47,159 nt of DNA from Ignavibacteriota bacterium. Lineage in GTDB: Bacteria > Bacteroidota > Ignavibacteria > Kapaibacteriales > UBA2268. Every line of letters begins with the position of its first letter. Position 1 is the first letter of the stretch. The stretch is from positions 1 through 47,159 of the forward strand of contig JAGXGG010000032.1 in NCBI GenBank assembly GCA_024636855.1, read 5' to 3'. Below the pieces are notes generated by a model. The model made no database searches, had not been told where the DNA came from, and saw only the letters and a program-made list of their open reading frames with translations. Shown one piece after another: positions 14,054 through 34,454 of the stretch. The position numbers were made by a program, and so were the translations under genes.

Positions 14054-14054
14054 A

Positions 14055-14264: not shown

Positions 14265-14288
14265 TAACGTAATAAAGCAAGTAAAAAA

Positions 14289-14310: not shown

Positions 14311-14312
14311 TA

Positions 14313-17153: not shown

Positions 17154-17175
17154 GACGAAAATGCATATTTTCGTC
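17154..17175. repeat. Perfect palindrome next to the iterons
   Basis: Arms GACGAAAAT and ATTTTCGTC are perfect reverse complements separated by GCAT. The palindrome directly abuts the iteron array. Confidence 0.75.
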
Positions 17176-17177
17176 GA

Positions 17178-17229
17178 AATTTGCACATTTTTGTACTGAA
17201 TTTGCACATTTTTGTACTCATTTTGTACT
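17178..17229. repeat. Iteron-like tandem repeats, 21-bp period
   Basis: AATTTGCACATTTTTGTACT occurs exactly at 17178-17197 and 17199-17218. A partial third copy, ATTTTGTACT, ends at 17229. A 21-bp period places the copies on the same helical face, as in iterons bound by replication initiators. Confidence 0.75.
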
Positions 17230-17527
17230 GATGCTATACTAATTACTACTAAAATCTTACTTTTCACTTCTAAAATCACTCTATTTGATGTTAAAATAAC
17301 ACTTTTTACTATTAGATTATTTGAAATCACTAATAATCAATAACTATATTAACAGAATCAATACTTACAGAGCTATTTTACAATAAAATTAAACTTTAAA
17401 AGGTTTTTTTGATTCTATCGGGTAAAAATCACTAAAATTTTCAAAATATATTGCCTTTCCTAAAGTTCTACTTCAGAACTTACAAAATAAAAATATTATG
17501 TTGCTTTTTAAAAATAATGGTCAATTC

Positions 17528-17649
17528 GTAAACGATACGTTTACAGTTAGAAATATAAATATAGTAAGTTGAACTTAACCGAATGCAAAATTTGATTGAA
17601 CTATAAGTTCAGTGAGAGAACTTTTTTTGAAGTTACGGGCTGACCGTAA
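17528..17649. promoter_or_regulatory. Cluster of four perfect short palindromes
   Basis: GTAAACGataCGTTTAC at 17528-17544, TAAGTTgAACTTA at 17565-17577, TGAACTataAGTTCA at 17597-17611 and TTACGGgctgaCCGTAA at 17633-17649. The cluster lies 150-270 bp upstream of the gene at 17798, in AT-rich non-coding DNA. They could be operators or part of the origin. Confidence 0.5.
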
Positions 17650-17797
17650 GATATTCTCAAATTATTTTCTTAATTTTAACAAGCTAGATTAATATTTGTT
17701 CATTTGTGAGACGTTTATCGAGTTAATGTGTCTCTAAAAAAATGACAACTTACGAAACAGAAAAAATAATTATTAAATTTAAAGAGGGGATACTCAA

Positions 17798-19114
17798 ATG
17801 AAAAACATAATATTAACAATTCTAGGAATGATTGTGCTCATTCCACAAATATCTTTCGCAGAACAAGAAATAGTATGGGAGTTAGAAGGTGTTGGGCTTG
17901 GTGTGGGGGATATAATATTATCAAACACCCAAGACTTATTTTACTATCCTAATTATAATGATGATTATAGTAGTATTCAAATAAGAAGTATAATTGATGG
18001 GAGATTAATTGATTCTATTGTTCTTGATGATTTTAAAAAGAGAACTATTGATAAAATATCAATAACAGATGATGACAAATTTTTGGCTATATCGGGGGAT
18101 TTCCCGCAAATCATAATATGGGATTTGATAAATAAACAAATTTATAAAAAATTCACAAAAGTAATATTTGAAGGGGATTCTGCTCACTTTTGGAAATCAG
18201 CTTCAATTTCACCAGATGGTACTAAACTAACAGCAATTGCAGTAAAGGAATTTTCTTCAATAGTTACCGAGTTAGTAGTGTTTGATATTGAAACAGAAGA
18301 AGTAATTATTTCAGAGAACAGAAATAATATGGATAAAATAAATGGAGTCTATTATGGTCCCATTTGGGTGTCAACAGAGTTTTCGCCAAACGGTGAATAT
18401 TTAGTAACAGAACTAAGTGTTAATTGGGATCATCAAAGTGGACAAGTTGTATTGGATTCGGTATATATATATAATAATAATTTCACTATAGTTGGGAACT
18501 TACAAAATCAATTTCAAAAAAACGACTTATCTTTTAGTGATTCTGAAAATATGTTATCGTCCAAACATGGCAACAAGTTGATAATTTATAATTTAGATAC
18601 ACGAGAAACACAAGATATATTTCTGGAAAGAAGCCCTTATTCTGTTTTATTTTCAAGAGTGAATTCCTCTGAAATATTATTAAGCTTAGGTACAAGAGCA
18701 TATACATATAATATCAAAAATAAAGTTGAGGAATATAATTATGAAAACAATATATATGCTAGTGTGATACTGAACGATAATTCAAAAGTTATTGGCCATG
18801 GTGTGAATGGACTATTATGTTTAAATACTTTTTGGAATCTAACATCAGTAGATAATTCATCGAGTAAAACTACTTTCTATCCTAATCCAGTTAACAATCT
18901 TTTAAGAATTAATCTCGATATCACAATGGGAGCCGAGTTTGAGTATGACTTATTTGATATTAATTCTAATAAGCTAGAAACTAAGAATTTAAATTTTTTA
19001 AAAACTGGAATTAATTATATAAATATTGATTTTAGTTTATTTCCTCCTCAAACTTATTTTCTAAAAATTTATAATTCTAATGAATCTCATAACTTCAAAA
19101 TTATTAAGGAGTAA
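17798..19114 (+). CDS. T9SS-exported beta-propeller-like protein carried by the element
   Basis: 438 residues with a Sec signal peptide (about 1-21, cleavage after FAEQ-like sequence). The middle has WD40/quinoprotein-like repeats: DDDKFLAISGDFPQIIIWDL, SISPDGTKLTAIAVKE and STEFSPNGEYLVTELS. The last 80 residues are a T9SS type A sorting domain (TTFYPNPVNNLLRINLDI ... INYINIDFS ... YFLKIYN ... FKIIKE). AGAGGGG precedes the ATG. It is followed after 5 bp by the 1364-residue gene, so the pair forms an operon. Function is unknown; the propeller suggests a protein- or ligand-binding surface role. Confidence 0.8.
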   Translation: MKNIILTILGMIVLIPQISFAEQEIVWELEGVGLGVGDIILSNTQDLFYYPNYNDDYSSIQIRSIIDGRLIDSIVLDDFKKRTIDKISITDDDKFLAISGDFPQIIIWDLINKQIYKKFTKVIFEGDSAHFWKSASISPDGTKLTAIAVKEFSSIVTELVVFDIETEEVIISENRNNMDKINGVYYGPIWVSTEFSPNGEYLVTELSVNWDHQSGQVVLDSVYIYNNNFTIVGNLQNQFQKNDLSFSDSENMLSSKHGNKLIIYNLDTRETQDIFLERSPYSVLFSRVNSSEILLSLGTRAYTYNIKNKVEEYNYENNIYASVILNDNSKVIGHGVNGLLCLNTFWNLTSVDNSSSKTTFYPNPVNNLLRINLDITMGAEFEYDLFDINSNKLETKNLNFLKTGINYINIDFSLFPPQTYFLKIYNSNESHNFKIIKE

Positions 19115-19119
19115 TCATT

Positions 19120-22100
19120 ATGAAAAAGCTAATATTTTTATTACTTCTTATAATATCAAATTTTTCAATTAATTCACAAACTTATGAAGCGAAACCCTTT
19201 AACTTTACTTGGACTGCTGATTCTGTACCAAAACCTCTTGTATTAGATTCTTTTAACGTAAATAGTTTTTTACTGGGTTTTCAGTGGTCAGGTACTCCAC
19301 GTATGAATCAGGCACTTAGACACAATGCGAATGCAGGAGGTAGGTTCCAATATGACCCCAATACATTTGATGGAGCTAATCTTATTCATATCTTTGCTCA
19401 ACCATCAATAGATGCACATAACAGTAGTGGTGTTAATTATGCAAATGCACACTTTATACAATACGAGCCAACATTATACACTACTGACTATACACAATTT
19501 AAAACTCGATTTAATGACTCCACAAATTCAATATTTGGTTTCAGCAATATACATGGAACTGTATTGTCAGCTAATCAATTTGCTGATACAAATTATAATC
19601 GACTAATACTTTATAAAGATAGTCTAGCTAATTATCCAGTTGACTCAATTGTATTGAACGGTTTAAACCCAAATGATAAATTTGAGACTTATATAGGATC
19701 TGGTCAGCACAGTGGATATACTGGCGAAAAATGGAATCTATCTATTAATCTTCGTAGATTACGCCCACATATTAATCAAAATTTCAGTCCAACTGATACT
19801 GTTCTTGTCATTCGTTTACCTTATGTAGCTAAGGATACTTTTGGAATTGTCAGAAATAAATATATAAACTTTGATAAAGTACCTAAATCAAACATTCCAT
19901 CTGATACAGTCAGTTTAAATTATTACCAGTATCGTGGTTATGCATTGAATACTAAAACTAATCTAACCCAACAAAATAAATTAGTTATTACCAAAGCAAT
20001 GCTTGATTCAAACAGAGCTGCACCTGATATAACAATATCCGCACATTTTTCTCTTTTTCAAGATTCTTTATCATTACTACCAAGTTTACAAAAATTTTAT
20101 AACCCTCGTTTTCATCCTGGTTTTGGAGATACTGCACATGCTTTACTTGAATTTGAACAAATTCAAACTATAGATATAGAAGTCAAGTATTACGGTAATT
20201 GCGATATAGCAATAGATTGGCTACGAATTGAGACAGACAAAGCCCAAGATATGCTTCGAGGTAAATACGATAATAATGGTACGTCAGGGGCAAAATATAT
20301 CATAGAGTCTTTCATAGACACTATACCAAAAATAAAACACAATGGAAAACAGCAATATAAAATACATAGGTTTTATGCCCAAGATAGTGAAAAGAGTAAT
20401 CCCGTATTTTGGGGTCAACTTAGATATTATAATCTAGTTACTAATGGATTAGCTATGACAAGGGATAACCCATTTTTACCAGACCAGTACAGTTATTATA
20501 CAAAATCATTAAATAGATATTTGGGATTAAAGCTTTCTGAAAATGAACATGATTTGCCTAATCCAGCAATAAGAGCAACTTTTGATTCACTGGGACAATA
20601 TCCAGATGCACCTTGGAAACATTTTGGTTTTAAGTACGGATTTAGGGGCTATCAAACTGGCGACACTTTAACATCTGGTTATGAAACATTTATAGATAAT
20701 TGGTCTCTTGATCGTGACCCACTCATATTTAATAATATGAAGAATTATAATGATTCACTTTATGGCGAGCATGCGTGGCATTCAACTTCAACTCAAATGA
20801 TGTATGGACGTTATGTAAGTGGAATATTCTACAATAAGGACAATTATAAATTTTTATATACTGGCAATCCATGGTATATGAATTTATTTGTTGGTACTAA
20901 TGTAAGTAAAGATACTATATTAACACCAGGCATTGTACCAAATCCTCAAAATTATGTTGTTCGACCTCAGTATTTGAAACCAAAAACTGGAGAAGAAATC
21001 AGATTACTAATGAATACAAATATAATAAGGGGAGCAAAAGGAATATTATATGATAGAGAAGAGAATACAAGAATAAACCCAACAATATTTTTGGGAGTTG
21101 GAAATGGTTTAATTGATGTTGATTTTGATATTGATAATCTTGATTCATTTGCAGAAAATGATACAATCGGTGGTGATTTCCCGAATGGGATAGCAGATGT
21201 ATATGACTATTCGACTTATTTGAATAAGGACACTTTATCAAGATATAACAAGATTGCCCCAAATAGGGTCTATGTAGGTGTCAAATCAGTAAGAACAGAA
21301 ATAAAAAGAGTGAATGATTGGGTACGTCTTAATGATATTGAGTTAATGGATTTGCGTTTACAGGCAGCTTATACTAAGGAATTTAGAATCTATGAAAACT
21401 GGAATCCTTATAAATTTAGTCGCTGGAACAGTTCTCCTCTTCGACAGCTAGTAAATCTTGAAGGGATTCGTACAAGAAAGTTATTTGAACCTAAGCATAC
21501 AATGATTCATAATACAAACCCTGATTATGAATTTATAGATTCTTCTTTCTTTGATATTACACTACTTCAACATAAAAATAATACTGACACAGATATTCTA
21601 AAAAATAAAAATTCAGTATATCTGGGAGTAATTAATAGAAGAACCGACCCTTTAATCTTCAGAGATTCTTTAGGCTCTAGTTCAACGGATTCATTACGTG
21701 AATTAATGTTCTTTACTGCCGCAGAATTCGATGATAAAGTTAGAAACGGCGGTACTGATTTATGGGGAATTAATCAAGATAGTACATGGTGGCAAAACCA
21801 ATGGTGGAAGCGTTTAGGAGCAAGGGAGATTAAAATACCATTGAATATTGAACCATATGGAAACGGTACTTATATATTAGCTCAGGAAATTGGAATTGAC
21901 AGTTTAGATTCACTTGGATGGAGATATGATGAAAAATATTACCACCGAGTGGATACTACCTTGACTTATAAAGATAGTATTATGACAAAATTATTACCTG
22001 GACAAGGCAAAATAATAAAACTTGAATTCGTTCCATATTTCTTTAATGACCCCACAAAAGACTCTGATACTACGAATGATCATTGCTATTTTTGTGATAT

Positions 22101-23214
22101 ATACAATGATTTTGATGCTTTTGAATTTGTGGTTGTCGAAACCCCAACAGAAGAAGGTTGTTGTTATATTGTTAAATTTAATTACAAAGGTGACTGTACA
22201 TTCGAAGATATTCCATTTAGGTTAATATTTGAGGGGGAAAGTGGTAATGCTTTTATAAGTAATGACCTTATGAGCCCTTTAATAGACTCTTTAGATCCAA
22301 ATATCAAATATAAAGATGTTTTGCTAGATTTAGATAGTGCACAAGGAGAAATAGAGATTGGTACTTTTTGTGTCTTTGAAAGTTCCAATAAATATAAAAT
22401 TTCATTATTAGCTGGCAAGGATAAAGATGATAAATTCATTGGCTGTGATAGAGAGATGCAGTTTGAAGTAAAGTGTGACAGTACCAATACTCCTCCAAAA
22501 GATTGTTGTGAAGGATTAGCTGTGAGTGATTCTATGTATAGCACTGGTACTTCACCTCTTGACCCGACTTTGGGTTCGTTTTGTACACTATATAATATAA
22601 GTACAGGATTCGATTCAGATTGTATATTTGGCGTTACAATAGAAGGTGGTGGAGTTCAACGTCCTCTCATTCCATTGGGGCTTACTCCTTTAGATTTTAC
22701 AGTAGGTTCTGGTTATGAATTTGAAGTTTGCGTTGATATGGCACAATGTGGATCTGCAAGTGAGCAAGCACAGACAATAAAAATGGTAAAAATGCAGTTC
22801 TTGGGTAAGAATGGTACTATAATATGTGAGATTGAAGTACCTATACTTATTCCATGTACTTATTTGGGACTAAGTGATTTTGATATAGACTTTACAAGTC
22901 CTTATATCCCAAAATCGTCAAAAGAAAAACCAGAATCAAAAACTTACGAATCTGATTCATTTAAGGTGACTGTATGGCCGAATCCTACATCAGGTGAGCT
23001 AAACGTTGAGATAGACTCTAAAGTGGATACAGAGGTTGATATTAACTTTATAAGCAACATTGGTGCTAGTATATCCAATGAAAACGGTGTTACTATCAAC
23101 AAAGGGGTAAATGAAAAGACATATAATCTTAAAAATTACTCTTCTGGTGTGTACTACTTACAAATCAATGGTAAAGATGGTAATATTGTATTACCAATTA
23201 TGTTGAATAAGTAA
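19120..23214 (+). CDS. Large T9SS-exported surface protein carried by the element
   Basis: 1364 residues, with a signal peptide at about 1-19 and a T9SS type A sorting domain at the end (VTVWPNPTSGELNVEI ... YSSGVYYLQINGKDGNIVLP). The long central part is rich in Asn, Asp, Tyr and Trp and looks beta-stranded, but I recognise no enzymatic motif. Around residues 1010-1200 is a Cys-rich stretch with paired cysteines (EEGCCYIVKFNYKGDC, PKDCCEGLAV), possibly disulfide-bonded Ig-like modules. It starts with AAGGAG 8 bp before the ATG and 5 bp after its neighbour, and ends at a terminator. A surface adhesin or structural role is only an inference. Confidence 0.75.
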   Translation: MKKLIFLLLLIISNFSINSQTYEAKPFNFTWTADSVPKPLVLDSFNVNSFLLGFQWSGTPRMNQALRHNANAGGRFQYDPNTFDGANLIHIFAQPSIDAHNSSGVNYANAHFIQYEPTLYTTDYTQFKTRFNDSTNSIFGFSNIHGTVLSANQFADTNYNRLILYKDSLANYPVDSIVLNGLNPNDKFETYIGSGQHSGYTGEKWNLSINLRRLRPHINQNFSPTDTVLVIRLPYVAKDTFGIVRNKYINFDKVPKSNIPSDTVSLNYYQYRGYALNTKTNLTQQNKLVITKAMLDSNRAAPDITISAHFSLFQDSLSLLPSLQKFYNPRFHPGFGDTAHALLEFEQIQTIDIEVKYYGNCDIAIDWLRIETDKAQDMLRGKYDNNGTSGAKYIIESFIDTIPKIKHNGKQQYKIHRFYAQDSEKSNPVFWGQLRYYNLVTNGLAMTRDNPFLPDQYSYYTKSLNRYLGLKLSENEHDLPNPAIRATFDSLGQYPDAPWKHFGFKYGFRGYQTGDTLTSGYETFIDNWSLDRDPLIFNNMKNYNDSLYGEHAWHSTSTQMMYGRYVSGIFYNKDNYKFLYTGNPWYMNLFVGTNVSKDTILTPGIVPNPQNYVVRPQYLKPKTGEEIRLLMNTNIIRGAKGILYDREENTRINPTIFLGVGNGLIDVDFDIDNLDSFAENDTIGGDFPNGIADVYDYSTYLNKDTLSRYNKIAPNRVYVGVKSVRTEIKRVNDWVRLNDIELMDLRLQAAYTKEFRIYENWNPYKFSRWNSSPLRQLVNLEGIRTRKLFEPKHTMIHNTNPDYEFIDSSFFDITLLQHKNNTDTDILKNKNSVYLGVINRRTDPLIFRDSLGSSSTDSLRELMFFTAAEFDDKVRNGGTDLWGINQDSTWWQNQWWKRLGAREIKIPLNIEPYGNGTYILAQEIGIDSLDSLGWRYDEKYYHRVDTTLTYKDSIMTKLLPGQGKIIKLEFVPYFFNDPTKDSDTTNDHCYFCDIYNDFDAFEFVVVETPTEEGCCYIVKFNYKGDCTFEDIPFRLIFEGESGNAFISNDLMSPLIDSLDPNIKYKDVLLDLDSAQGEIEIGTFCVFESSNKYKISLLAGKDKDDKFIGCDREMQFEVKCDSTNTPPKDCCEGLAVSDSMYSTGTSPLDPTLGSFCTLYNISTGFDSDCIFGVTIEGGGVQRPLIPLGLTPLDFTVGSGYEFEVCVDMAQCGSASEQAQTIKMVKMQFLGKNGTIICEIEVPILIPCTYLGLSDFDIDFTSPYIPKSSKEKPESKTYESDSFKVTVWPNPTSGELNVEIDSKVDTEVDINFISNIGASISNENGVTINKGVNEKTYNLKNYSSGVYYLQINGKDGNIVLPIMLNK

Positions 23215-23236
23215 GGTATTGATAAAATAAGATCCC

Positions 23237-23276
23237 AAACCGTAGCTACACTTTATAAGTTAGTTGCGGTTTTTTT
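23237..23276 (+). terminator. Terminator after the T9SS cargo operon
   Basis: AAACCGTAGCTA (23237-23248) pairs with TAGTTGCGGTTT (23261-23272) with two non-Watson-Crick positions and a 12-nt loop, followed by T residues to 23276. It separates the surface-protein operon from hsdM. Confidence 0.75.
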
Positions 23277-23306
23277 ACAAATTCACAGTTAATAACTATA
23301 TCTACA

Positions 23307-23336
23307 AGTTTCCTTATATTAGTGCAACAGGAAACT
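23307..23336. promoter_or_regulatory. Inverted repeat just upstream of hsdM
   Basis: AGTTTCCT (23307-23314) and AGGAAACT (23329-23336) are perfect 8-bp arms with a 14-nt spacer, ending 19 bp before the hsdM ATG, which lacks a clear Shine-Dalgarno. It could be an operator or a leader hairpin controlling the restriction operon. Confidence 0.45.
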
Positions 23337-23355
23337 AATAAAACGAAATAAGTAT

Positions 23356-24927
23356 ATGTCTGAAGATCAAAAAAAACAACTACAACAACAACTCTGGAAT
23401 ATAGCTAACACACTTAGAGGGAAAATGGATGCGGACGAGTTCCGTGATTATATCCTTGGCTTTGTGTTCTATAAGTACTTGTCTGAAAAGATGAATATCT
23501 ATGCCAATAACATTCTAAAATCTGATGGAATACAATTCAATGACATCAAAGAAGATAGTGTTAAAGGTAAGGAGTACATAGAAGCGATAAGAGAAGAGTC
23601 AGTCGAGACTTTGGGTTACTTCCTAAAACCTTCGGAACTGTTCAGCCAAGTGGCTAAAAGGGGTAACAGCGATGTCAAAGGAATTTCAAACTTCATACTC
23701 GAAGATTTACAAAAGATTCTGACTAATATCCAACTCAGCACAATGGGAACGGAAAGCGAAGAGGATTTTGATAATCTATTTGAAGATATGGATTTGAACT
23801 CTACCAAGTTAGGGAAAACTCCTGAAGCTAGAAATGGGATTATTTCTAAAGTGCTATCTCACTTAGACAAAATTGACTTTGAATTAGAAAATACTGAGAT
23901 TGATGTATTAGGCGATGCTTATGAATATTTGATTGGTCAGTTTGCAAGTGGTGCTGGTAAAAAAGCAGGTGAATTTTATACACCTCAAGAAGTCAGTAAA
24001 GTACTGGCTAAGTTAGTTACGATAGGAAAAACCAAACTAAAATCAGTATATGATCCAACTTGCGGTTCGGGTTCGCTACTGTTACGAGTAGCCAAAGAGG
24101 TGGAAAGCGTTACAAACTTCTACGGTCAAGAATTAAACAGAACGACTTATAACTTGGCTCGTATGAATATGATTCTGCATGATGTTCATTACCGTCAATT
24201 CGATATAAAACAAGAAGACACATTAGAACACCCTCAGCATTTGGAAGAAAGGTTTGAAGCTATTGTTGCAAATCCTCCTTTCTCGGCTCAATGGTCTGCT
24301 AATCCACTTTTCACAAGTGATGATAGATTCAGTCAATATGGGAAGTTAGCACCCAAATCTAAAGCAGATTTTGCATTCGTACAGCATATGATATACCAGT
24401 TAGCTGAAAACGGTACAATGGCGTTAGTACTACCTCACGGAGCGTTGTTCAGAGGTGGAGCGGAACAACATATACGTAAGTATCTAATTGAAGATAAAAA
24501 CTACTTAGATGCTGTTATTGGCTTACCTGCTAATCTGTTTTTTGGTACTTCTATTCCTACAAGTATTCTTGTATTTAAGAAATGTAGAGAAAACCCTGAC
24601 AATATACTATTTATAGATAGTAGTGAACATTTCGAAAAAGTAAAAACACAGAATACACTACTACCAGAACATATTGATAAGATAATAGATACTTACAGAG
24701 ACAGAAAAGAGATTGATAAGTACAGCTATTTAGCACCACTTTCTGAGATACACGAAAATGATTACAATCTAAATATTCCAAGATATGTAGATACATTCGA
24801 AGAGGAAGAACCAGTTGATATTGCTCTAGTATCTATAGAATTAAAAAAATTAGAAACCAGTATGAAGGGAACGGACAAAGAATTGATTGCACTTTGCAAA
24901 GAACTAAATATTGACACCCCTTTTTAA
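23356..24927 (+). CDS. hsdM: Type I restriction-modification methyltransferase subunit HsdM (type IC-like)
   Basis: 523 residues, the length of EcoR124-type HsdM. The N-terminal HsdM helical domain reads QLWNIANTLRGKMDADEFRD, then YILGFVFYKYLSEKM. The N6-adenine methyltransferase fold follows with SAM motif I DPTCGSGSLLL (233-243) and catalytic motif IV NPPF (306-309). Two HsdM subunits and one HsdS form the modification enzyme that methylates adenine in each half of the target. The segments GEFYTPQEVS, YNLARMNMILHDV and LAPKSKADFAFV are shared with the type IC group. It is the first gene of a tight operon, 2 bp before hsdS. Confidence 0.95.
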   Translation: MSEDQKKQLQQQLWNIANTLRGKMDADEFRDYILGFVFYKYLSEKMNIYANNILKSDGIQFNDIKEDSVKGKEYIEAIREESVETLGYFLKPSELFSQVAKRGNSDVKGISNFILEDLQKILTNIQLSTMGTESEEDFDNLFEDMDLNSTKLGKTPEARNGIISKVLSHLDKIDFELENTEIDVLGDAYEYLIGQFASGAGKKAGEFYTPQEVSKVLAKLVTIGKTKLKSVYDPTCGSGSLLLRVAKEVESVTNFYGQELNRTTYNLARMNMILHDVHYRQFDIKQEDTLEHPQHLEERFEAIVANPPFSAQWSANPLFTSDDRFSQYGKLAPKSKADFAFVQHMIYQLAENGTMALVLPHGALFRGGAEQHIRKYLIEDKNYLDAVIGLPANLFFGTSIPTSILVFKKCRENPDNILFIDSSEHFEKVKTQNTLLPEHIDKIIDTYRDRKEIDKYSYLAPLSEIHENDYNLNIPRYVDTFEEEEPVDIALVSIELKKLETSMKGTDKELIALCKELNIDTPF

Positions 24928-24929
24928 TT

Positions 24930-26147
24930 ATGGAAAAGCAACAAAATAAAAAGCCATTGGTTCGCTTTCCAAAGTTTAAAGATGATTGGGAATATAAGAG
25001 ATTTGAAGATTTTTTAATTTATACACCAAGACCTAAAGAAAAACCAAAAAGTAATTATCTTTCGATTGGACTGAGAAGTCATTTTAAAGGGACTTTTCAG
25101 AAACCTGATACTGACCCAAATAAAAATGCAATGGATACACTATATGAAATTAAAGAAAATGATTTTTTAGTAAATATAACTTTCGCTTGGGAAGGTGCAT
25201 TAGCAATTGTTCCAAAGGCAGATGATGGCGGTTTCGTCTCTCATAGATTCCCTACATATACTTTTGAAAATGAAGTTGATAATATGTTTTTCAAATATCA
25301 TTTTTTTAAAGAAAAAAGTAAACATCAATTAGGTGTTGTTTCTCCAGGTGGTGCTGGTAGAAATAGAGTTATGAATAAAACTGATTTTGTTAAATTAAAG
25401 CTCCCTTTCCCAACTTTACCCGAACAACAAAAGATTGCACATTTTTTTACTACGTTAGATAAAAAGATAGACCAGCTACAAGAAAAGAAAAACGCTTTAG
25501 AAAAGTACAAGAAAGGGATGATGCAGAAATTATTTTCAAAGGAGCTGAGGTTTAAGGATGATAATGGGAAAGATTATCCTGATTGGGAAGTGAAGAGGTT
25601 GGGGGAGGTTTCTGCTAATATTATGTATGGTATGAATGCATCTGCAACTACTTTTGACGGCAAAAATAAATATTTGAGGATTACAGATATTGATGAGAAT
25701 ACAAGAACTTACATTCCCAACCCAATCACATCTCCACAAGGTCTAATTGAAGATAAGTATAAATTATCTGAAGGCGACATTGTATTTACAAGGACAGGTG
25801 CTAGTGTAGGAAAAAGCTATTTGTACGATAAGAAAGAGGGTGATTTATTCTTTGCGGGATTTCTAATTCGATTTGCAATTAAAAAAGGAAATCCAAATTT
25901 TATGTATTATCAAACTTTAACTGAAAAATATAACAAATGGGTAATTACAATGTCAATGCGTTCTGGACAACCAGGATTGAATGCAAATGAATATAAAGAG
26001 TTTGAAATAGTATTCCCATCAATTCAAGAACAAAACAAAATAGCCAACTTCTTATCAAAAATAGAAAATAAAATAAGTGCTGTAAACGAACAGATAGAAC
26101 AGACCAAAACCTATAAAAAGGGCTTACTACAAAAAATGTTTGTATAA
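24930..26147 (+). CDS. hsdS: Type I specificity subunit HsdS with two target recognition domains
   Basis: 405 residues, full length. TRD1 occupies about residues 15-165, followed by the central conserved coiled-coil LPEQQKIAHFFTTLDKKIDQ with KYKKGMMQKLF (about 165-205). TRD2 starts at WEVKRLGEVSANIMYGMN (about 215-355), and the C-terminal conserved repeat is IQEQNKIANFLSKIENKI with TYKKGLLQKMF. The two conserved spacers set the gap between the two half-sites. No duplicated or inverted hsdS copy or extra recombinase sits beside it, so phase-variable TRD shuffling is not evident here. The recognition sequence cannot be read from the protein by eye. Confidence 0.95.
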   Translation: MEKQQNKKPLVRFPKFKDDWEYKRFEDFLIYTPRPKEKPKSNYLSIGLRSHFKGTFQKPDTDPNKNAMDTLYEIKENDFLVNITFAWEGALAIVPKADDGGFVSHRFPTYTFENEVDNMFFKYHFFKEKSKHQLGVVSPGGAGRNRVMNKTDFVKLKLPFPTLPEQQKIAHFFTTLDKKIDQLQEKKNALEKYKKGMMQKLFSKELRFKDDNGKDYPDWEVKRLGEVSANIMYGMNASATTFDGKNKYLRITDIDENTRTYIPNPITSPQGLIEDKYKLSEGDIVFTRTGASVGKSYLYDKKEGDLFFAGFLIRFAIKKGNPNFMYYQTLTEKYNKWVITMSMRSGQPGLNANEYKEFEIVFPSIQEQNKIANFLSKIENKISAVNEQIEQTKTYKKGLLQKMFV

Positions 26148-26153
26148 AAGATT

Positions 26154-29009
26154 ATGACTACACAACCAGAACAAGTATTAGAAAATCAATTAGTTGCACA
26201 GCTCCAAGAGTTGCAATATGAAAAAGTATTGATCAAAGATGAAACTGCCTTAGTAACCAACTTAAAAAAGCAATTAGAAAAGCATAATAATATAGTCTTC
26301 ACTGATAAAGAGTTTGAACGAGTACTTAATATATTGAGTAAGGGTTCTGTATTCGAAAAAGCTAAGACACTAAGAGAAAAGCAACATATAGAACGAGACA
26401 ATGGCGACAACCTATATTTCGAGTTTTTCAATACTGAGCATTGGTGTCAGAATCAGTTTCAGGTGACTCACCAAGTAACTATGGAAGGAACATATAAGAA
26501 TCGCTATGATGTTACTTTGCTTATCAATGGTCTGCCTTTAGTTCAAATAGAGCTAAAGCGTAGAGGTCTGGAAATGAAAGAAGCCTTCAACCAATTAAAT
26601 AGGTATCAAAGACATTCATTTGGTTCTAATTCGGCTCTATTTCAATACGTACAAATATTCATCATCAGCAATGGCGTTAATACTAAGTATTATGCTAATA
26701 ACAGACATCAATCATTCAAACAAACATTCTTTTGGACTGACAAAAATAATAAACGTCTGACTAATATACTAAATGGTTTCACGAGCGACTTTTTAGAACC
26801 CTGTCATATATCAAAGATGATAAGTAAATACATAGTTCTTAATGAGACTCATAAAATATTGATGGTTCTAAGACCTTATCAATACTATGCTGTAGAAGCC
26901 CTTGTAAATCAAGTTGAAAATTCTAATGATAATGCTTATATATGGCACACAACTGGCTCAGGTAAGACCCTAACTTCATTCAAAGCAAGTCAGATAATAA
27001 TGAATATGCCACAAGTGAAAAAAGTGGTATTCGTAGTAGATAGAAAAGATTTGGATTATCAGACTACTAAAGAATTTAATAGTTTTAGCAAAGGCAGTAT
27101 AGACGGAACTGACAATACTAAAGCACTGGTAAACCAATTCACAGACGATACTAAGCTGATAGTTACTACTATACAAAAGCTCAATACAGCTATTAGCAAA
27201 GCCAAGTACTTATCTAAAATGGAAAAGCTACAAGAAGAGCGAGTAGTATTCATTTTCGATGAGTGCCACCGTTCCCAATTCGGAGATACACACAACAGAA
27301 TAAAAGCATTTTTCCATAATAACCAGATGTTCGGCTTTACTGGAACACCTATTTTCAAAGACAACGCAGTTAAAAATGAATTAGGAAAGCGAACAACAAA
27401 AGAATTATTTGGCGAATGTCTCCATAAATACGTTATCACAGACGCTATAAAAGATGAAAACGTACTCAAATTCTCAGTAGAATATGTAGGTAAATACAAG
27501 CGAAAAGAATCTGCTACCGAAATTGATATAGAAGTAGAAGACATAGACACCAAAGAGTTAATGGATAGTGAAGTTCGGTTAGAAAAGATAACCGATTATA
27601 TAATAGCTAATCATGGTAGAAAGACTCACGGAAAAGAGTTTACAGGTATGTTCGCTGTTAGTGGTATTCAAAACTTGATAAAATATTACGATCTATTTAA
27701 ACGGAAAAAGGAAGAAGGTAAGCACAGCTTAAAGATTGCAACAATATTTAGTTATGTAGCCAATGAAGAAGATGCTGATGCCAATGGTTTTATTCCAGAA
27801 GAATTGTCAGTAGTAGGAGAGCCAAAAGTACTATACGGAATGCACGAACATTCCAGAGATAAATTAGACGAATATATTGCTGATTATAACTCTATGTTCG
27901 GCACAAAATTCTCCACCAAGGACAGTCAATCATTTTACAACTATTACAATGATGTTTCTAAGAAAGTAAAAGAACGCAAGATTGATATTCTATTAGTAGT
28001 TAATATGTTCCTAACTGGATTTGACAGCCCTACACTTAGCACTTTGTATGTAGATAAGAATCTTAAATATCATGGTCTAATACAAGCGTATTCGAGAACC
28101 AACAGAATAATAAATGATCAAAAATCACAAGGGAATATTGTAGTATTCAGAAACCTGAAAAAGGCAACAGATGAAGCTATAACACTCTTTAGCAACAAAG
28201 AAGCTATAGATGTAATCATTATGGAACCCTATGAAGATTATGTCAATAAATTCAATGAAGCATTTATTGGGTTACTCTCAATAACACCAACAGTTAACAG
28301 CGTAAACAATCTAATCTCAGAAGCTGACGAACTTGAGTTTATAAAAGCATTCCGTGATCTAATGCGAATCAGAAACATACTAAATTCATTCTCAGATTTC
28401 GAATGGGAAGATTTGGCTATGAATGAACAGCAATTCGAAGACTACAAAAGTAAGTACCTCGATTTGTGGCAGAAAGTAAAAAATGATAACCAAAAAGAAA
28501 AAGTATCAATATTAGAAGATGTAGATTTTGAATTAGAATTAATACTAAGAGACGAAATCAATGTAAACTACATAATTAAGCTATTGATGGCTTTAAAATC
28601 TGAATCTCAGAATGAAGTTACTAAAACAGAACAAGAGATTACAAACCTACTAAATACAGAAATTAACCTTAGAAGTAAGCGTGAATTGATACAGCAATTC
28701 ATAGATGAGAATCTACCCACAATAGAGGACTCTGACGACATTCCAGAAGCATTTGAGGTATATTGGAATGAAGAACAGCAAAAAGCCTTTAAGAAGCTAA
28801 TAACAGAAGAAAATCTATCAGAAGAAAGAACCCTAAAGCTAATAGAAAACTATCTATATGCAGAAAGAGAACCACTAATAGATGAAGCAGTAGAATTAAT
28901 AGATGGTGAACAGCCATCAGTTCTAATCCGTAGAAAAGTAGGAACTAAAATACTCAAACAGATCGTTGATTTCGTAGATACGTTTATTAATGGGATTACG
29001 GGGAATTAG
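26154..29009 (+). CDS. hsdR: Type I restriction endonuclease subunit HsdR
   Basis: 951 residues. The N-terminal PD-(D/E)xK nuclease shows Asp119 (YDVTLLINGLP) and Glu133-Leu-Lys135 (VQIELKRRG). The SF2 translocase has Walker A WHTTGSGKT (about 263-271), DEAD-box variant DECH (about 373), FGFTGTPIF, and C-terminal helicase motifs NMFLTGFDSPTLSTLY and QAYSRTNRI. The C-terminal helical region mediates HsdM/HsdS contact. HsdR translocates DNA with ATP and cleaves unmethylated DNA at a distance. All catalytic motifs are intact, so the system should be active. It starts 6 bp after hsdS. Confidence 0.95.
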   Translation: MTTQPEQVLENQLVAQLQELQYEKVLIKDETALVTNLKKQLEKHNNIVFTDKEFERVLNILSKGSVFEKAKTLREKQHIERDNGDNLYFEFFNTEHWCQNQFQVTHQVTMEGTYKNRYDVTLLINGLPLVQIELKRRGLEMKEAFNQLNRYQRHSFGSNSALFQYVQIFIISNGVNTKYYANNRHQSFKQTFFWTDKNNKRLTNILNGFTSDFLEPCHISKMISKYIVLNETHKILMVLRPYQYYAVEALVNQVENSNDNAYIWHTTGSGKTLTSFKASQIIMNMPQVKKVVFVVDRKDLDYQTTKEFNSFSKGSIDGTDNTKALVNQFTDDTKLIVTTIQKLNTAISKAKYLSKMEKLQEERVVFIFDECHRSQFGDTHNRIKAFFHNNQMFGFTGTPIFKDNAVKNELGKRTTKELFGECLHKYVITDAIKDENVLKFSVEYVGKYKRKESATEIDIEVEDIDTKELMDSEVRLEKITDYIIANHGRKTHGKEFTGMFAVSGIQNLIKYYDLFKRKKEEGKHSLKIATIFSYVANEEDADANGFIPEELSVVGEPKVLYGMHEHSRDKLDEYIADYNSMFGTKFSTKDSQSFYNYYNDVSKKVKERKIDILLVVNMFLTGFDSPTLSTLYVDKNLKYHGLIQAYSRTNRIINDQKSQGNIVVFRNLKKATDEAITLFSNKEAIDVIIMEPYEDYVNKFNEAFIGLLSITPTVNSVNNLISEADELEFIKAFRDLMRIRNILNSFSDFEWEDLAMNEQQFEDYKSKYLDLWQKVKNDNQKEKVSILEDVDFELELILRDEINVNYIIKLLMALKSESQNEVTKTEQEITNLLNTEINLRSKRELIQQFIDENLPTIEDSDDIPEAFEVYWNEEQQKAFKKLITEENLSEERTLKLIENYLYAEREPLIDEAVELIDGEQPSVLIRRKVGTKILKQIVDFVDTFINGITGN

Positions 29010-29012
29010 GGT

Positions 29013-30374
29013 ATGAATCTGATTGAAGAAATGAAACAATTAATAAAAAAATGGATTTTAAAAAGTCACAGTAATCATTTCAAATTTGTAACCGATTACG
29101 AAGAAAGTGCAAATATTAGAAGAGATTTACTTAATAATATTGAATTAGAAGAAAATTTGAAATTACATGAGATAATTATAAATAAATTAATACCAATTTA
29201 TCAATTTGAAAATTTTAAACAACAAGTTATAAAGAAAAATAATGAAACAGTTGATTATTTTAAAGACAGTAAAAATGCTCAAGATAGTTATAACAAACTG
29301 TCATTTGGTAACTTAATTGATATTCCGATAGATATTGATAAATATGATATGATAGACCAACTATCAGTTTCATTTTTTAAGGGTGTAAATTCTTTTGTAA
29401 ATTTAGAGTTTATAATTATACCTTCAAAAAATTTTCAAAATAAATATATAGAATCTTTCAAGCAACCATTAAAAGTAAAATATAAATTAATGCTATTTAA
29501 TGATATAAGACTTATTTTTAAAGAAAAATCGCTTTTAAGACAAGTCGTAATTGAAAAACCATCATATACTTCAAACTCTTCTACTTTAATAATTGCATTA
29601 AAAAAGCAATTAGACAAATACCTTAATTCAATAATTAAGAACAATTATTTTCTATCTGTGAATAGTTATACAAACCTCTGTTTTGATTATGAAAATAGTT
29701 TTTATAAAAAACATGTTAGTTTGATTGAAGATTACTTTGAAATAAAGCCTAATCATTCATTTAGAACCACTAACAATAATTTTTCTTTTATTATTGGAAA
29801 TGATAGCTTTTCTATGATTAATTTTAGAGAAAGGGGTATCTTTTATGATAATCAATTTACATTTGAAAAAATTTCTATTCTATGTTTTCAATTGAATACT
29901 TTAATATCTGAAAGACCAAAGTTAAATGATTTAAAAAATAATCTTTATAATTACTCTGATCAACAAAAGAAAAATAATTATCAAGATTTATTGGTTTTAC
30001 AAACGGAAATAAATCGACTAAAAGATTTAATTGAAAGAATATATTTAGATACAAATTCAAATTATTTCAGAAGACAAATAATATCAACTTTGGAAAAATA
30101 CAAGAATAAAAAGACCCAATCATTAAGTTATTTTCTTTTAAGTGCTGTGGACTCATCATTTGAGACATTTAATATGAACATCAATAACATGGGACTAAAA
30201 ATTAAAAATTTAAGCGAACAAGAAAAATTGAAAATTGAACATAAAAAAAATCAATATTTATTATTAATAGCTTTTTTAGGTCTTTTCATATCTCTGGTTC
30301 AATTATATGGTTTTGTTGGAAAAACATCATTATTAAAAGAAATATGTATATATCTTTACTGCTTGTTTTCATAA
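29013..30374 (+). CDS. Unrecognised protein with C-terminal membrane anchor, attached to the hsd operon
   Basis: 453 residues, starting 3 bp after the hsdR stop, so it is almost certainly in the hsdMSR transcript. No known domain is recognised. The first 300 residues are Lys/Asn/Phe-rich with mixed helices and strands. Residues about 320-420 look coiled-coil (QDLLVLQTEINRLKDLIERI; LSEQEKLKIEHKKNQ), and one hydrophobic segment follows near the end (YLLLIAFLGLFISLVQLYGF). There is no signal peptide, so the bulk is probably cytosolic, with the C-terminus in the inner membrane. Its base composition seems even more AT-rich than hsdMSR, suggesting separate acquisition. A defence accessory role is a hypothesis. 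Confidence 0.75.
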   Translation: MNLIEEMKQLIKKWILKSHSNHFKFVTDYEESANIRRDLLNNIELEENLKLHEIIINKLIPIYQFENFKQQVIKKNNETVDYFKDSKNAQDSYNKLSFGNLIDIPIDIDKYDMIDQLSVSFFKGVNSFVNLEFIIIPSKNFQNKYIESFKQPLKVKYKLMLFNDIRLIFKEKSLLRQVVIEKPSYTSNSSTLIIALKKQLDKYLNSIIKNNYFLSVNSYTNLCFDYENSFYKKHVSLIEDYFEIKPNHSFRTTNNNFSFIIGNDSFSMINFRERGIFYDNQFTFEKISILCFQLNTLISERPKLNDLKNNLYNYSDQQKKNNYQDLLVLQTEINRLKDLIERIYLDTNSNYFRRQIISTLEKYKNKKTQSLSYFLLSAVDSSFETFNMNINNMGLKIKNLSEQEKLKIEHKKNQYLLLIAFLGLFISLVQLYGFVGKTSLLKEICIYLYCLFS

Positions 30375-30429
30375 TTATTTGTATGAAAATGAAAAAACAG
30401 TATTTACTTTCTTTATTTGAAAGATCGGA

Positions 30430-31269
30430 TTAATATTTAATCAATTTTTTTATTTCTATTTCAAATGGATTTTTAAATGAGTATGAAATATGAAAATCCT
30501 CAAACTCAATTTCAAATTCATCTTTATATAGAGTAATCCCCCTCAATGTATTGATATAACGTTTAAAAGATTTATCAGGATTTAATTCATAATCAGTAAC
30601 TCCAAAAACTTTAAAATTCTTCTGAACAAATTCTCCATATTGCAATCCTCCTCCGACAGTTTCTATCTTTTTCCCTCTAATTACTTCTCTTATAATTTGC
30701 AAAGAATTTAGCTTGTTATTATTTGAATAAATCTTTTGAGCTTCTTTTTTGCCTGAACCAAAAAATTCTATACCATCTTGTAATAGAATTTCATCATAGA
30801 TTGGTTCAATTGATTTATGTTTGTGTGGTTCTACATAAAAACTGAATATCCTTAATTTATTTTGAAGAGGACAATGCCCACAAAGTATTATCTGACATAG
30901 ACTTTTATCCATTACGATAGGAGCTAATTCCAAAGAATTTTTTTTATAGACTTTAAACACTAATTTTGAAATATTATCCATTGAGATGTTTGTTCTACCT
31001 GGAATGTATTGTAAATGTTGCAGTATTTCTAGAATTGAATCTTTTATTGAATAAGCATTTACTGCATTTCCAACAACAGCCATTCCATATTTATAATTAT
31101 AATCTAGGTTTGTTACTTCCGTTTCTGAAAGGGTAGGAGAATAAATATGTACAGGAATAGAAAAAATCTTTATACCAAAATCTACACTTCCACTCGTACC
31201 AAATGAGAGTCTCGAATCTGAGGCTAAGGAAAGTTTATTTCCAAATTTTTTTGCAATTACTAAAGTCAT
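30430..31269 (-). CDS. Predicted Ntn hydrolase of the proteasome-beta/HslV/Anbu type
   Basis: 279 residues starting Met-Thr. After Met removal, Thr1, Asp17 (LASDSR) and Lys33 (GIKIF) fall exactly at the catalytic positions of proteasome beta subunits and HslV. The SDSR context is like Anbu. Further fold-like marks are YGMAVVGNAVNAY (equivalent of the GFAG/AG segment), FFGSGKKEAQ at about 168-177 and VGGGLQYGEF at about 204-213. It is longer than HslV or Anbu because of insertions. The ATG has AGGG upstream and no other nearby start. No ATPase partner (HslU/Mpa) lies next to it. It lies convergent to the hsd operon. Substrate and role are unknown; a self-assembling peptidase or amidase linked to defence is a hypothesis. 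Confidence 0.7.
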   Translation of the reverse strand: MTLVIAKKFGNKLSLASDSRLSFGTSGSVDFGIKIFSIPVHIYSPTLSETEVTNLDYNYKYGMAVVGNAVNAYSIKDSILEILQHLQYIPGRTNISMDNISKLVFKVYKKNSLELAPIVMDKSLCQIILCGHCPLQNKLRIFSFYVEPHKHKSIEPIYDEILLQDGIEFFGSGKKEAQKIYSNNNKLNSLQIIREVIRGKKIETVGGGLQYGEFVQKNFKVFGVTDYELNPDKSFKRYINTLRGITLYKDEFEIEFEDFHISYSFKNPFEIEIKKLIKY

Positions 31270-32121
31270 ATTATCCCTTTTATTTATTGATTAATACTTA
31301 ATTGCACCAAAATACATAAATAAAAATTTTAATTCAAATCCCTACCAAGTACCACACCTGATTATATAAATTAGGACGGTGCTAATAAGATTTTTAAAAG
31401 AAATAAAGAAAAACTTCCATGAAACTTATAAACATAAACGAACAACAAAGTAATATTGTAGAATTGATTACATAATTGACTTTAAAACAACGCTTTTTCA
31501 CTCTAAAACTACACTTTTATACTTTATATCTTATTAATTTAACTATGAATTGACTACGAAACAATAACATATCTATTGATTTATAAGGAGTTATACGATT
31601 TTATAGCCCCTAATAGATGTTATTTCCATATTTATCCGATTTCTTTAGAAAATACAGACCGTCATAAAGCCCTCATAATCAATTTTTATTTGGTAAAGCA
31701 TATATGACTATGCCTTATTAATCGGACAAGTGGGTCATAATTAATAATTGGGTGTTTTTTGGGGGTAGTGAGTTCCATTTCATTAACAGCAGACTGGGTT
31801 TTTCATTCTTCGAACAACATTATTATTCATAAACATAACAGCAACGTAACGATTTCGAACATTTTCAAACTATTCGGACAGTATTCGGTTTGTTTGGTAA
31901 ATGATTTCGAATTTATAATGTAATTTTATTGACTATGAATAAAGAGAAATAACGATCTGTGATATAGTATAATTATGAGAATAGAATGGATAACTTATAT
32001 TTGAGTTTCCCCCAAAAAAAAGATTATAAGAGTTGTAACCGCTTCATTATTAGTATTGTCTGAATTGTATTTGTTTGAGGTTGAGAAGAAACCAAGTCTA
32101 TTAGGTTAGTTAGGGTTTTTA
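31270..32121. other. 850-bp non-coding gap inside the element
   Basis: No gene is supported on either strand. Visible structure is an imperfect hairpin at 31563-31624 (13 paired bases with a 2-nt bulge), a G-rich stretch near 31750-31766, a copy of the motif AAATTAGGACGGT (31368-31380) that recurs near the integrase, and repeated GATTTCGAA words near 31842 and 31907. The promoter of the Ntn hydrolase gene should lie near 31280-31330. Confidence 0.5.
31563..31624. repeat. Imperfect inverted repeat / hairpin
   Basis: AATAACAT plus CTATT (split by a 2-nt AT bulge) at 31563-31577 is the reverse complement of AATAGATGTTATT at 31612-31624, with a 34-nt loop. No T-tract follows, so it is not an obvious terminator. 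Confidence 0.5.
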
Positions 32122-32664
32122 CTATTTACTATTTCCCTCTGATTCCTTATTATCAGAAATATTTTTATCTTTTAAACTCTTATTGTTCTTAAAGACACCA
32201 TAGAAATAACTACCAGTTAAAGAAATCAATGTAGTAGCAAGCATTCCTGCTATAGTTCTTTCTCCAATTACTGCTAAATAAACAGAACCAAATAAGGCAA
32301 ATAGCCCTAATATGAAAGCCATTATTTGCCCAATTGAACTTTGCTTTTCCCTCGATTGTATTACAATCGCTTCAATATTTCTTCTATGTTTGGATTGTTC
32401 TTTAAATTCGTCAAGAATATCTTTGGCAGAACCTGGTAAAATTTTCTCATAAAGTCCAAATGTAATTGGATCAGGAATTGGCCCGCTAATCGTTGTAGTT
32501 GTCGTTTGTTGTGAAATCTTTACTGCAATTTTTTTTAAATCATCATTAGTAAAATCATCTTTGTCAAGTAAGTTTAATATATCTTCTTGCGAGTTTACTG
32601 TTTGATTACTTTTATTGCTTTGAAGACCTCTATTTTGATGAGGTTGTTTCTTTTTCGGATTCAT
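32122..32664 (-). CDS. DUF2335 predicted membrane protein
   Basis: 180 residues. The central block GPIPDPITFGLYEKILPGSA, continuing KDILDEFKEQSKHRR (about 60-94), is the DUF2335 signature. Two predicted transmembrane segments follow (IGQIMAFILGLFALFGSVYLAVI and IAGMLATTLISLTGSYFYGVF), with a charged tail. The N-terminal 55 residues are Gln/Asn/Lys-rich and probably disordered. DUF2335 proteins are small two-span membrane proteins frequent on phages and islands; function is not established. Its start overlaps the end of the 89-residue gene by 35 bp, so both are co-translated. Confidence 0.85.
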   Translation of the reverse strand: MNPKKKQPHQNRGLQSNKSNQTVNSQEDILNLLDKDDFTNDDLKKIAVKISQQTTTTTISGPIPDPITFGLYEKILPGSAKDILDEFKEQSKHRRNIEAIVIQSREKQSSIGQIMAFILGLFALFGSVYLAVIGERTIAGMLATTLISLTGSYFYGVFKNNKSLKDKNISDNKESEGNSK

Positions 32665-32899
32665 TTTCTGTTGCAGTTAATCTTATTTTATTTAATACTT
32701 GCTCTAAAAAAGCAATCTTTAAATCCTCACCAATCATATTCCAATCATTTTGAATAGCCTTAACATCAGCTTTTTCAGGAGTTTCAGAGACGTTATAATC
32801 ATAATAATTACCTGCTAAATTGAAAGCACTCCCTGCACCAACAACAAATGAAGAATCTGAAAATAAGAAATCAGTTCTATATTTTTTTCTTTCTTCCAT
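32630..32899 (-). CDS. Small acidic protein coupled to the DUF2335 gene
   Basis: 89 residues, no transmembrane segment. The N-terminal part is MEERKKYRTDFLFSDSSFVV followed by GAGSAFNLAGNYYDYN; the C-terminus is Glu/Ser/Thr-rich. It is not recognised. It overlaps the DUF2335 gene by 35 bp, the type of overlap seen in paired components. The 115-bp gap to the integrase stop (33015) can hold its promoter. Confidence 0.7.
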   Translation of the reverse strand: MEERKKYRTDFLFSDSSFVVGAGSAFNLAGNYYDYNVSETPEKADVKAIQNDWNMIGEDLKIAFLEQVLNKIRLTATENESEKETTSSK

Positions 32900-33014
32900 T
32901 TTAACTTTATTCCATTTAGTTATTTAAATGTTTACTAATTTAATAAAAATAAATTAAACACTTACCTTAGAGACGTATATATTCATTTTCTGTTACATTA
33001 AGTTACCCAAAACC

Positions 33015-34232
33015 TTACATTTCATTTAGTTTATCTTTTACATTACTTACAGCTTCAGTATTTGCAATCCTTATATATTTATCAAACGAAGCTCTTGAAG
33101 TATGCCCTGTTATTTGCATTATTTCACTAGGGGAGACCCCTTTTTGTATTAATCTAGTTATAAATGTTCTTCGAGCAGTATGTGAGGAAACCAGCTCGTA
33201 TTTCGGCTTGTTTTCTTCTATTTGTCTATTGTTCTTATGTGAAGTAACTGAAACTATATCATTTATCCCAGCTTCTTTACAAAGTGTTTTTAACGCAACA
33301 GAATAAGAACTTAACCTGCCTTTAGTAAATTTAGTTACATCAAATACATTTAGAACCTCTTTTAGTTGCTTACTAATAGGGATCGTAATAATTTTATTAG
33401 TTTTTTCAGTAACGATTTTAATCGTTTCATTTTCTAAATCTATCTTTTCTTTAGTCAGTTTAACAATATCTGAAACCCTTAAACCTGAATATAATTGAAA
33501 TAGAAAATAATGCTTAGTATTGTAAAGTTGCTTATTGTTAGGTTTATAATTCAACAGTTTTTCAATATCGTTATCACTTAATGCAACTGATTCAGTTTGA
33601 TATTTTTTATTGGTAATTTCTTTATAATCTTGATTATCTATATACCTTTTCTTGAAAGCATAGTTTAAAATAACATTTTTCAAAGTTAGTTTGTAACTAA
33701 TAGAATTATCTTTATAACCACATTCTTTAGTGAGAAAACCCTTAAAATTTATAAGTAAGTCTTGATTTATATCTTCTAAATCAATAATTTTATTTGTGTG
33801 CTCTTGAAAATCAATAATGTTTTTCTTGAAACCTAGATAACCTCTGATAGTTCTATCTTTAATTGCTAAAGACTTTTTCTTATACTCTATGAACTCATCT
33901 ATTAAACTAGTAAAAGTAAGTTTTTCTTTTTTACCTAACTCTTGATAGCTCTTAAAAGAGCTTTTCAGCTCGTCAAATTTGATAGTATTATATTTGTCAT
34001 AATGTTGAACGCATTCTCTTTCTATAAATTGTTGTAATTGATCTAATGTCTTATTAGCATGTACTGTATATGTATATGAGGATTTTATTCGTTGTTTATT
34101 ACTATCCCAATACTTTGTTTCTATCGACAATTTAGATGTCAATCTTAATCTTTTACCTTTAGACCAAATATTAAAAAAAATATTTGTTTTGCTTTTATTA
34201 GGGTGAGCTAGATAACGGTTAATTTCAACCAT
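33015..34232 (-). CDS. int: Tyrosine recombinase/integrase of the element
   Basis: 405 residues, typical of Bacteroidota element integrases. The N-terminal arm-binding and SAM-like core-binding regions (about 1-200) are followed by the catalytic domain. The first Arg lies in LYSGLRVSDIVKL, a candidate beta-strand Lys in TEKTNKIITIPIS, then His351-x-x-Arg354 (HTARR), His377 (GH) and nucleophile Tyr386 (SFDKYIR). All catalytic residues are present. The start codon lies 202 bp from the right attachment repeat, the standard arrangement. It should catalyse integration into and excision from the 5' end of the ABC-F gene. Confidence 0.93.
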   Translation of the reverse strand: MVEINRYLAHPNKSKTNIFFNIWSKGKRLRLTSKLSIETKYWDSNKQRIKSSYTYTVHANKTLDQLQQFIERECVQHYDKYNTIKFDELKSSFKSYQELGKKEKLTFTSLIDEFIEYKKKSLAIKDRTIRGYLGFKKNIIDFQEHTNKIIDLEDINQDLLINFKGFLTKECGYKDNSISYKLTLKNVILNYAFKKRYIDNQDYKEITNKKYQTESVALSDNDIEKLLNYKPNNKQLYNTKHYFLFQLYSGLRVSDIVKLTKEKIDLENETIKIVTEKTNKIITIPISKQLKEVLNVFDVTKFTKGRLSSYSVALKTLCKEAGINDIVSVTSHKNNRQIEENKPKYELVSSHTARRTFITRLIQKGVSPSEIMQITGHTSRASFDKYIRIANTEAVSNVKDKLNEM

Positions 34233-34394
34233 AGAAAGTCCTAAGTTATAATTGTAATGCAGTCAGAGTACAATATAATTATATATTAGATTAAGACAAA
34301 ATTTAGGACGGTTTTTCTTGATTATTAGACTATTACTTGAATTTGTTGATATATCGACACAGATATAATGAGTGCTGTAAGCGTTGATTAAGAG

Positions 34395-34427
34395 GTCTTG
34401 AAGTTAAAAGGAGTGTCTTGAGATTAA
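34395..34427. repeat. Candidate integrase-binding direct repeats near attR
   Basis: GTCTTGAAGTTAA (34395-34407) and GTCTTGAGATTAA (34415-34427) match at 11 of 13 positions with a 20-bp period, ending 7 bp before the attachment core. They could be integrase or excisionase sites. Confidence 0.45.
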
Positions 34428-34434
34428 CGATATA

Positions 34435-34454
34435 ATATTATTTACCGTAATCAT
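34435..34454. repeat. attR: right copy of the 20-bp attachment-site repeat
   Basis: Exact copy of 12459-12478. Read on the minus strand it begins with ATG and the same first six codons as the ABC-F gene, but the frame then runs into element DNA and stops after 16 codons. It therefore marks where the original gene start was split from its upstream DNA. Confidence 0.85.

Follow-up and report, generated by a model that had tools for sequence, protein, structure and literature searches.

A divergent proteasome-like hydrolase gene recurring on mobile elements and near bacterial defence genes

The window analyzed in this work, a stretch of 47,159 nucleotides from an Ignavibacteriota bacterium, contains an integrative element that carries the gene for a protein with the features of an N-terminal nucleophile (Ntn) hydrolase. 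We read this protein as a divergent, probably active proteasome-like threonine hydrolase that travels as mobile, probably anti-phage cargo, and we give this reading a probability of roughly 0.55, with the defence role drawn from the gene context. The fold and the active site are well supported by the predicted structure and by the sequence alignment, while the protein may be, as originally suggested, a new effector or regulatory protease.

Active site of the Ntn protein

The original prediction was that the protein, once its initiator Met is removed, carries Thr1, Asp17 and Lys33 at the spacing found in proteasome beta subunits and HslV. Alignment with HslV of E. coli K-12, which reads MT...GD18...K34, places Thr2, Asp18 and Lys34 of the window protein (Met numbering) at identical positions, an exact match. 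The gene reads along the minus strand (31269->30430), a strand that the original prediction left unstated. The SDSR, GSG and VGGG motifs that had been pointed out lie at residues 17-20, 171-173 and 205-208. From composition, the T2, D18 and K34 pattern would be expected in 3e-4 of ORFs, and in the fetched loci, with 636 ORFs, it is confined to the Ntn family and E. coli HslV. Removal of the initiator Met would expose the Thr as nucleophile and the Asp and Lys would complete the site, in which case no propeptide would be needed for Thr exposure; we infer both the Met removal and the threonine-nucleophile catalysis from the sequence.

Searches with Pfam, NCBIfam and PADLOC assigned no family to the protein, and its PHROG match is phrog_16034, a family of unknown function (E 3e-13). 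HslV shares the triad spacing and the core fold class, but the window protein is about 100 residues longer (279 aa versus about 175 aa), has no hslU gene adjoining and does not match the Pfam profile PF00227. The host genome encodes its own HslV elsewhere, distinct from the gene on the element, and a misannotated or degenerate HslV was ruled out, since a separate host HslV exists and the triad is intact. The Ntn gene has no AAA+ unfoldase gene next to it; its neighbors are hsdMSR, the gene of a 453-aa protein, a DUF2335 gene and the integrase gene.

The integrative element in the window

The features of the element are listed in Table 1. That the gene sits on a mobile element, as had been proposed, is borne out by the attL and attR repeats and by empty sites in congeners. 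The direct repeats flanking the element are perfect over 20 bp, with a chance expectation of 1e-4, and the joined flanks are uninterrupted in two genomes of the same genus (G002, 83%; G001, 81%). In a third congener, G003, the same att site is split by a sibling element, in which the identity to the window element is 56% for the integrase, 63% for the primase, 97% for hsdM and 40% for hsdS. Near its integrase the G003 element has different genes, one for an HNH protein similar to PDC-M68A and to nuclease effectors of CBASS and one for a protein with weak matches to LmuA and RT-associated models. The Ntn gene is absent from G003, whose element spans two contigs and has its middle part outside view. 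Since the sibling element has other defence-like genes near the integrase, the Ntn gene is replaceable accessory cargo located between the type I restriction-modification (R-M) operon and the integrase.

Table 1. Features of the integrative element and its cargo in the window
Feature	Position	Strand	Evidence or remark
Integrative element, about 22 kb, carrying the Ntn gene	12459..34454	.	att repeats; two congeners with an uninterrupted site, a third with a related element there
att repeat, left (ATATTATTTACCGTAATCAT), spanning nt 1-20 of an ABC-F gene	12459..12478	.	repeat and empty sites
Phage-type transcriptional regulator	12647..13564	-	phrog_8
Short excisionase-like protein, HTH-like stretch near the C-terminus	13625..14053	+	sequence, putative role; 56% homologue in the sibling element
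Phage-type primase/helicase	14557..16614	+	phrog_1313, E 6e-62
hsdM, type I R-M methyltransferase	23356..24927	+	
hsdS, specificity subunit	24930..26147	+	
hsdR, restriction subunit	26154..29009	+	
453-aa protein, no family, hydrophobic C-terminal segment, 4 bp after hsdR	29013..30374	+	convergent with the Ntn gene
Proteasome-like Ntn hydrolase (predicted), 279 aa	30430..31269	-	Thr2/Asp18/Lys34 (Met numbering), predicted fold, conservation
DUF2335 membrane protein, upstream of the Ntn gene, same strand	32122..32664	-	phrog_3996
Small protein overlapping the DUF2335 gene	32630..32899	-	phrog_23666
Tyrosine integrase of the element	33015..34232	-	PF00589, PF13102
att repeat, right, identical 20 bp, beyond the integrase	34435..34454	.	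repeat and empty sites

The DUF2335 gene and the small phage-type gene lie about 850 bp upstream of the Ntn gene. Membership of the window Ntn gene in the type I R-M operon was considered and rejected on account of its convergent orientation; such membership does hold at locus L008, described below. Two further observations concern the rest of the cargo. The near identity of hsdM next to a strongly diverged hsdS in the congeneric elements (window 23356-26147; L064 9038-11739) is suggestive of rapid specificity swapping. Positions 17798-23214 of the window encode two large secreted-looking proteins with C-terminal sorting-type ends, an unusual cargo to find adjacent to an R-M system.

Predicted structure and relatives of the fold

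The AlphaFold2 model of the window protein, built from an eight-row alignment, has a pLDDT of 77 and a pTM of 0.80. The original prediction called for the Ntn sandwich, and the predicted structure does contain the alpha-beta-beta-alpha sandwich of the proteasome fold, with its elements in the order of strands, two helices, strands, two helices and strands that is the arrangement of proteasome subunits. A Foldseek search of the PDB returned 525 chains at E<=0.001, and the best 50 matches are all proteasome subunits or Anbu. With VIA-align the model gives a Z of 17.9 to Anbu (5nyw_C, 204 residues, 16% identity) and a Z of 17.7 to the Mtb 20S beta subunit, which is effectively a tie, and in the superposition residue 2 of the model falls on residue 1 of the mature chain. 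Profile methods see much less of this relationship: PF00227 is touched weakly by 2 of the 17 homologues described below, both distant ones (best E 0.0044, below the cut-off), and the hhalign comparison with HslV is marginal (E 0.004, probability only 8.5%). Sequence-profile matches in the PDB, chiefly to designed helical proteins, were discarded as an artefact of long helices.

The best structural match, Anbu, has the same type of N-terminal nucleophile site, but the Ntn protein exceeds the solved Anbu chains by about 35-45 residues, its likeness to Anbu was not picked up by sequence and, unlike Anbu, its family is found on mobile elements close to defence genes. The 20S beta subunit has the fold and the catalytic triad in common with the Ntn protein, whereas the latter comes from one gene, with no alpha subunit, ATPase or propeptide, and is 14-16% identical.

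Two other activities of related folds were weighed against these comparisons. The Ntn clan includes many amidases, and the extra length and divergent C-terminus of the protein could suit an amidase or acylase that acts on small molecules, for example to modify a signal or an antibiotic; we consider this very unlikely, given that the matches listed for the structure comprise proteasome and Anbu chains and no acylases, that Asp17 and Lys33 make a site of the proteasome type and that the gene context is one of defence and not of metabolism. Connectase, a proteasome-like ligase (PMC8665760), belongs to the same fold class, and a short additional loop that links two strands of the model (residues 44-54) could recall it. 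The model is without the long helical insertion of connectase, and there is no evidence of a recognition peptide, so that a protein ligase or transpeptidase in place of a protease is scarcely to be expected.

Homologues and their conservation

The alignment of the family was grown stepwise from a few genome, plasmid and satellite hits to a final set of 17 sequences, which spans Bacteroidota and Chlorobi-type genomes, proteobacteria, plasmids, E. coli satellites and one phage-like contig. Single-sequence scans of genome contigs, viral contigs and phages found no homologues, and profiles together with PHROG were required; phrog_16034 is matched by 12 of the 17. At a median pairwise identity of 21%, only seven columns are invariant (T2, D18, K34, G171, G207, Q210 and G244), and Thr2, Asp18 and Lys34 are thus constant in all 17, as a conserved Ntn active site would lead one to expect. 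Position 172 of the GSG motif varies among Ser, Asp and Cys, and G67, the probable column of the oxyanion-hole Gly47, is Gly in 16/17 and Arg in the Runella homologue. We examined the reading of the protein as catalytically dead and found it unlikely, because the triad is conserved in 17/17 homologues.

The family is very patchy. It was found in 2/345 genomes of the phylum and in 3/349 of a second phylum sample, and no homologue was found in 99 close relatives; the sample of homologue loci is a small one of about 13 lineages. One match, in genome G216 (locus L004), is interrupted by stops and was excluded.

Gene annotation of several homologues deserves a comment. Neither ATG nor GTG nor TTG occurs at the conserved start of the Vibrio homologue (L038), where ATC would restore Met-Thr. 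AAAGGAG precedes this apparent ATC start of the V. nigripulchritudo gene (position 8001) by six bases. With the annotated GTG start the catalytic Thr would be lost, and from the sequence the ATC seems to be either a rare start codon or a decayed start. The sister plasmid L051 has a shorter annotated CDS and a homologue match split in two pieces, and the homologue on the Azoarcus plasmid pAZKH (L050 1502-2323) is without an annotated gene in the PLSDB table.

Genomic neighborhoods of the homologues

Most homologues are carried by mobile DNA or sit in a defence context; these settings include type I or type IIG R-M systems (three loci), CBASS with DRT (one), AbiEi and reverse transcriptase (RT) genes (one), helper-embedded PICI satellites of E. 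coli (four) and plasmids. The original description of a lone homologue in defence-type cargo with no ATPase neighbor is supported in the window, and a setting of defence genes or mobile DNA recurs elsewhere. At L008 and L046 a tight run consists of hsdM, a RhuM-like gene, hsdS, a CD-NTase gene, hsdR, a DUF45-like gene, the gene of a 335-aa membrane protein and the Ntn gene. The Vibrio conjugative plasmid (L038) carries PDC-M27ABC, the Ntn gene, a CBASS cyclase with a 2TM effector, SLATT and RT-UG17, and the Acinetobacter conjugative plasmids (L048 and L049) carry AbiEi, RT, integrase and zeta toxin genes. A recombinase and DUF3800 are near the homologue on a Ruegeria plasmid (L047), and an Enterobacter conjugative plasmid (L005) has an integrase and, on the opposite strand, a P-loop ATPase. 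The homologues at L043, L044 and L050 are at a contig edge or surrounded by ordinary genes, the latter in two or three cases (L044, L050 and perhaps L043). No neighbor gene common to all loci was found, and in the loci other than the satellites the only recurring ones, besides ordinary genes, were R-M, RT and integrase pairs.

As a control we used the density of N6_Mtase genes in 60 genomes related to the window host, 1.43 per Mb. N6_Mtase genes lie within 8-10 kb in 3 of 11-13 loci against 2.3-2.8% expected per locus (P = 0.002-0.005), a rough estimate: the control set was drawn from relatives of the window host and not of the host of every homologue, and the hsdM of L008 was counted although it is nearly 9 kb from the Ntn gene, in the same operon. 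The homologues show the recurrent defence-island neighborhood expected of an anti-phage defence system; co-location need not mean function, since islands often hold R-M systems, CBASS and integrases.

The same neighborhoods bear on whether the protein is a stand-alone quality-control or stress protease that hitch-hikes without a conflict role, as has been suggested for uncapped 20S-like particles. This would suit the lack of an unfoldase neighbor and the copies amid ordinary genes, but the very patchy distribution, the enrichment near defence genes and the HslV that the host already has make it a rather improbable account.

In the E. coli satellites the Ntn gene is the first gene past the integrase and AlpA. 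Helper-embedded PICIs are known (PMC10111431), and these satellites show that arrangement, being inserted in capsid or prohead-protease genes of lambda-like prophages; a search of that paper by term turned up no proteasome-like cargo. A protease of the element's life cycle, which would cleave a repressor or another regulator of its own element, of a helper or of a competitor phage and so control excision or replication and not immunity, would agree with this position next to the integrase, with the consistent presence of the gene on mobile elements and with the one copy found among structural-type genes of a phage-like contig. We consider it unlikely, as the types of element are very diverse (satellites, conjugative plasmids, an integrative element, R-M operons) and the sibling element at the same site in G003 keeps integrase and primase without the Ntn gene, which makes the gene dispensable.

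Some details of these loci are worth recording. The Ntn satellites of L013 (10110-22187) and L014 are inserted in the major capsid gene of lambda-like prophages, and that of L054 (5984-7757) in the ClpP-like prohead protease gene of such a prophage. The far ends of E. coli satellites (L006 9273-9854; L011 11483-12136) hold HEPN-type or abortive-infection genes (RiboL-PSP, Abi_C) and form a second cargo site. In L046 (2462-11659) the CBASS-type CD-NTase gene, the RhuM-like gene and the DUF45-like metallopeptidase gene are interspersed among hsdM, hsdS and hsdR. The homologue of L057 (1040-1840) shares its phage-like contig with genes for a helicase and a possible structural protein, and phages themselves may therefore be carriers of proteasome-like proteins.

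Neighbors with a HEPN-type motif

Adjacent genes with the HEPN-type motif RNxxxH recur in three lineages, at L007, at L009 and in the satellites L011, L012, L053 and L054. In Runella (L007) a 346-aa protein with RNKIGH is encoded upstream of the Ntn homologue, and at L009 a type IIG R-M system is followed by the gene of a 407-aa protein with RNLLAH and then by the Ntn gene. A gene for a protein of 179-180 aa with RNKxGH overlaps the Ntn stop codon in L011, L012 and L054, and a shorter form of it lies downstream of the Ntn gene in L053. The background frequency of RNxxxH is about 3% of the ORFs of 140-450 aa in all loci, the motif-bearing partners included. The 180-aa satellite partner has no Pfam or PDB profile match, and its model is all helical at low confidence (pLDDT 52.6); the HEPN identity of the partners, which is putative, is read from a short motif. 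Because adjacent partner genes repeatedly carry RNxxxH, some lineages may combine protease and putative RNase in a two-gene unit. The window copy has no adjoining RNxxxH gene, and the motif is absent from the sequence of the 453-aa neighbor.

Proposed role

On the reading as anti-phage cargo, the Ntn protease would act in conflict with phages or competing elements. It would probably be a homo-oligomer that is held inactive until infection and, once triggered, would cleave a host or phage protein or control a partner protein. In the version paired with a HEPN-type partner, infection would alter the state of the protease so that the RNase is activated or no longer restrained. The conflict role, the regulation by oligomer state or infection and the link to HEPN-type RNases are proposals. 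For the window copy, action as a single gene or with a host partner is as likely as a partner-based system, since there is no HEPN-motif neighbor and the 453-aa gene is convergent. We propose only tentatively, as a possibility that we would bet against, that the family is a new anti-phage class in which a proteasome-type threonine protease is the effector or switch, paired with HEPN proteins in several lineages and working as a single-gene effector elsewhere, as in the window.

Relation to known proteasome homologues

Fuchs, Alva and Lupas described in 2021 a set of 22 families of proteasome homologues (PPH, AAH, GPH, PMI-1 to 6, DAH and others), some of them phage-linked, and found no genomic context suggestive of function for them (PMC8665760). 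The view in the original prediction that families of this kind are normally housekeeping peptidases is too narrow, as phage-linked homologues such as PPH and AAH were already on record (PMC8665760). The 2021 families, too, consist of proteasome-like proteins of bacteria that have diverged, in part phage-linked, that lack a propeptide and for which no AAA+ partner was found (PMC8665760). The family described here differs from them in its recurring defence and mobile context, in a comparison of families by description only (PMC8665760), and it could coincide with one of those families, such as GPH or a PMI. Divergent proteasome-like families have been known since 2021, and the new part is the defence context; a search of open-licence papers gave no precedent for proteasome-like proteins in phage defence. 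The strictly kept active site, together with neighbors of the R-M, CBASS, RT and HEPN-motif types, gives a testable immunity role to part of the 2021 list. If this role is true, the proteasome fold would join the parts used by bacteria against phages.
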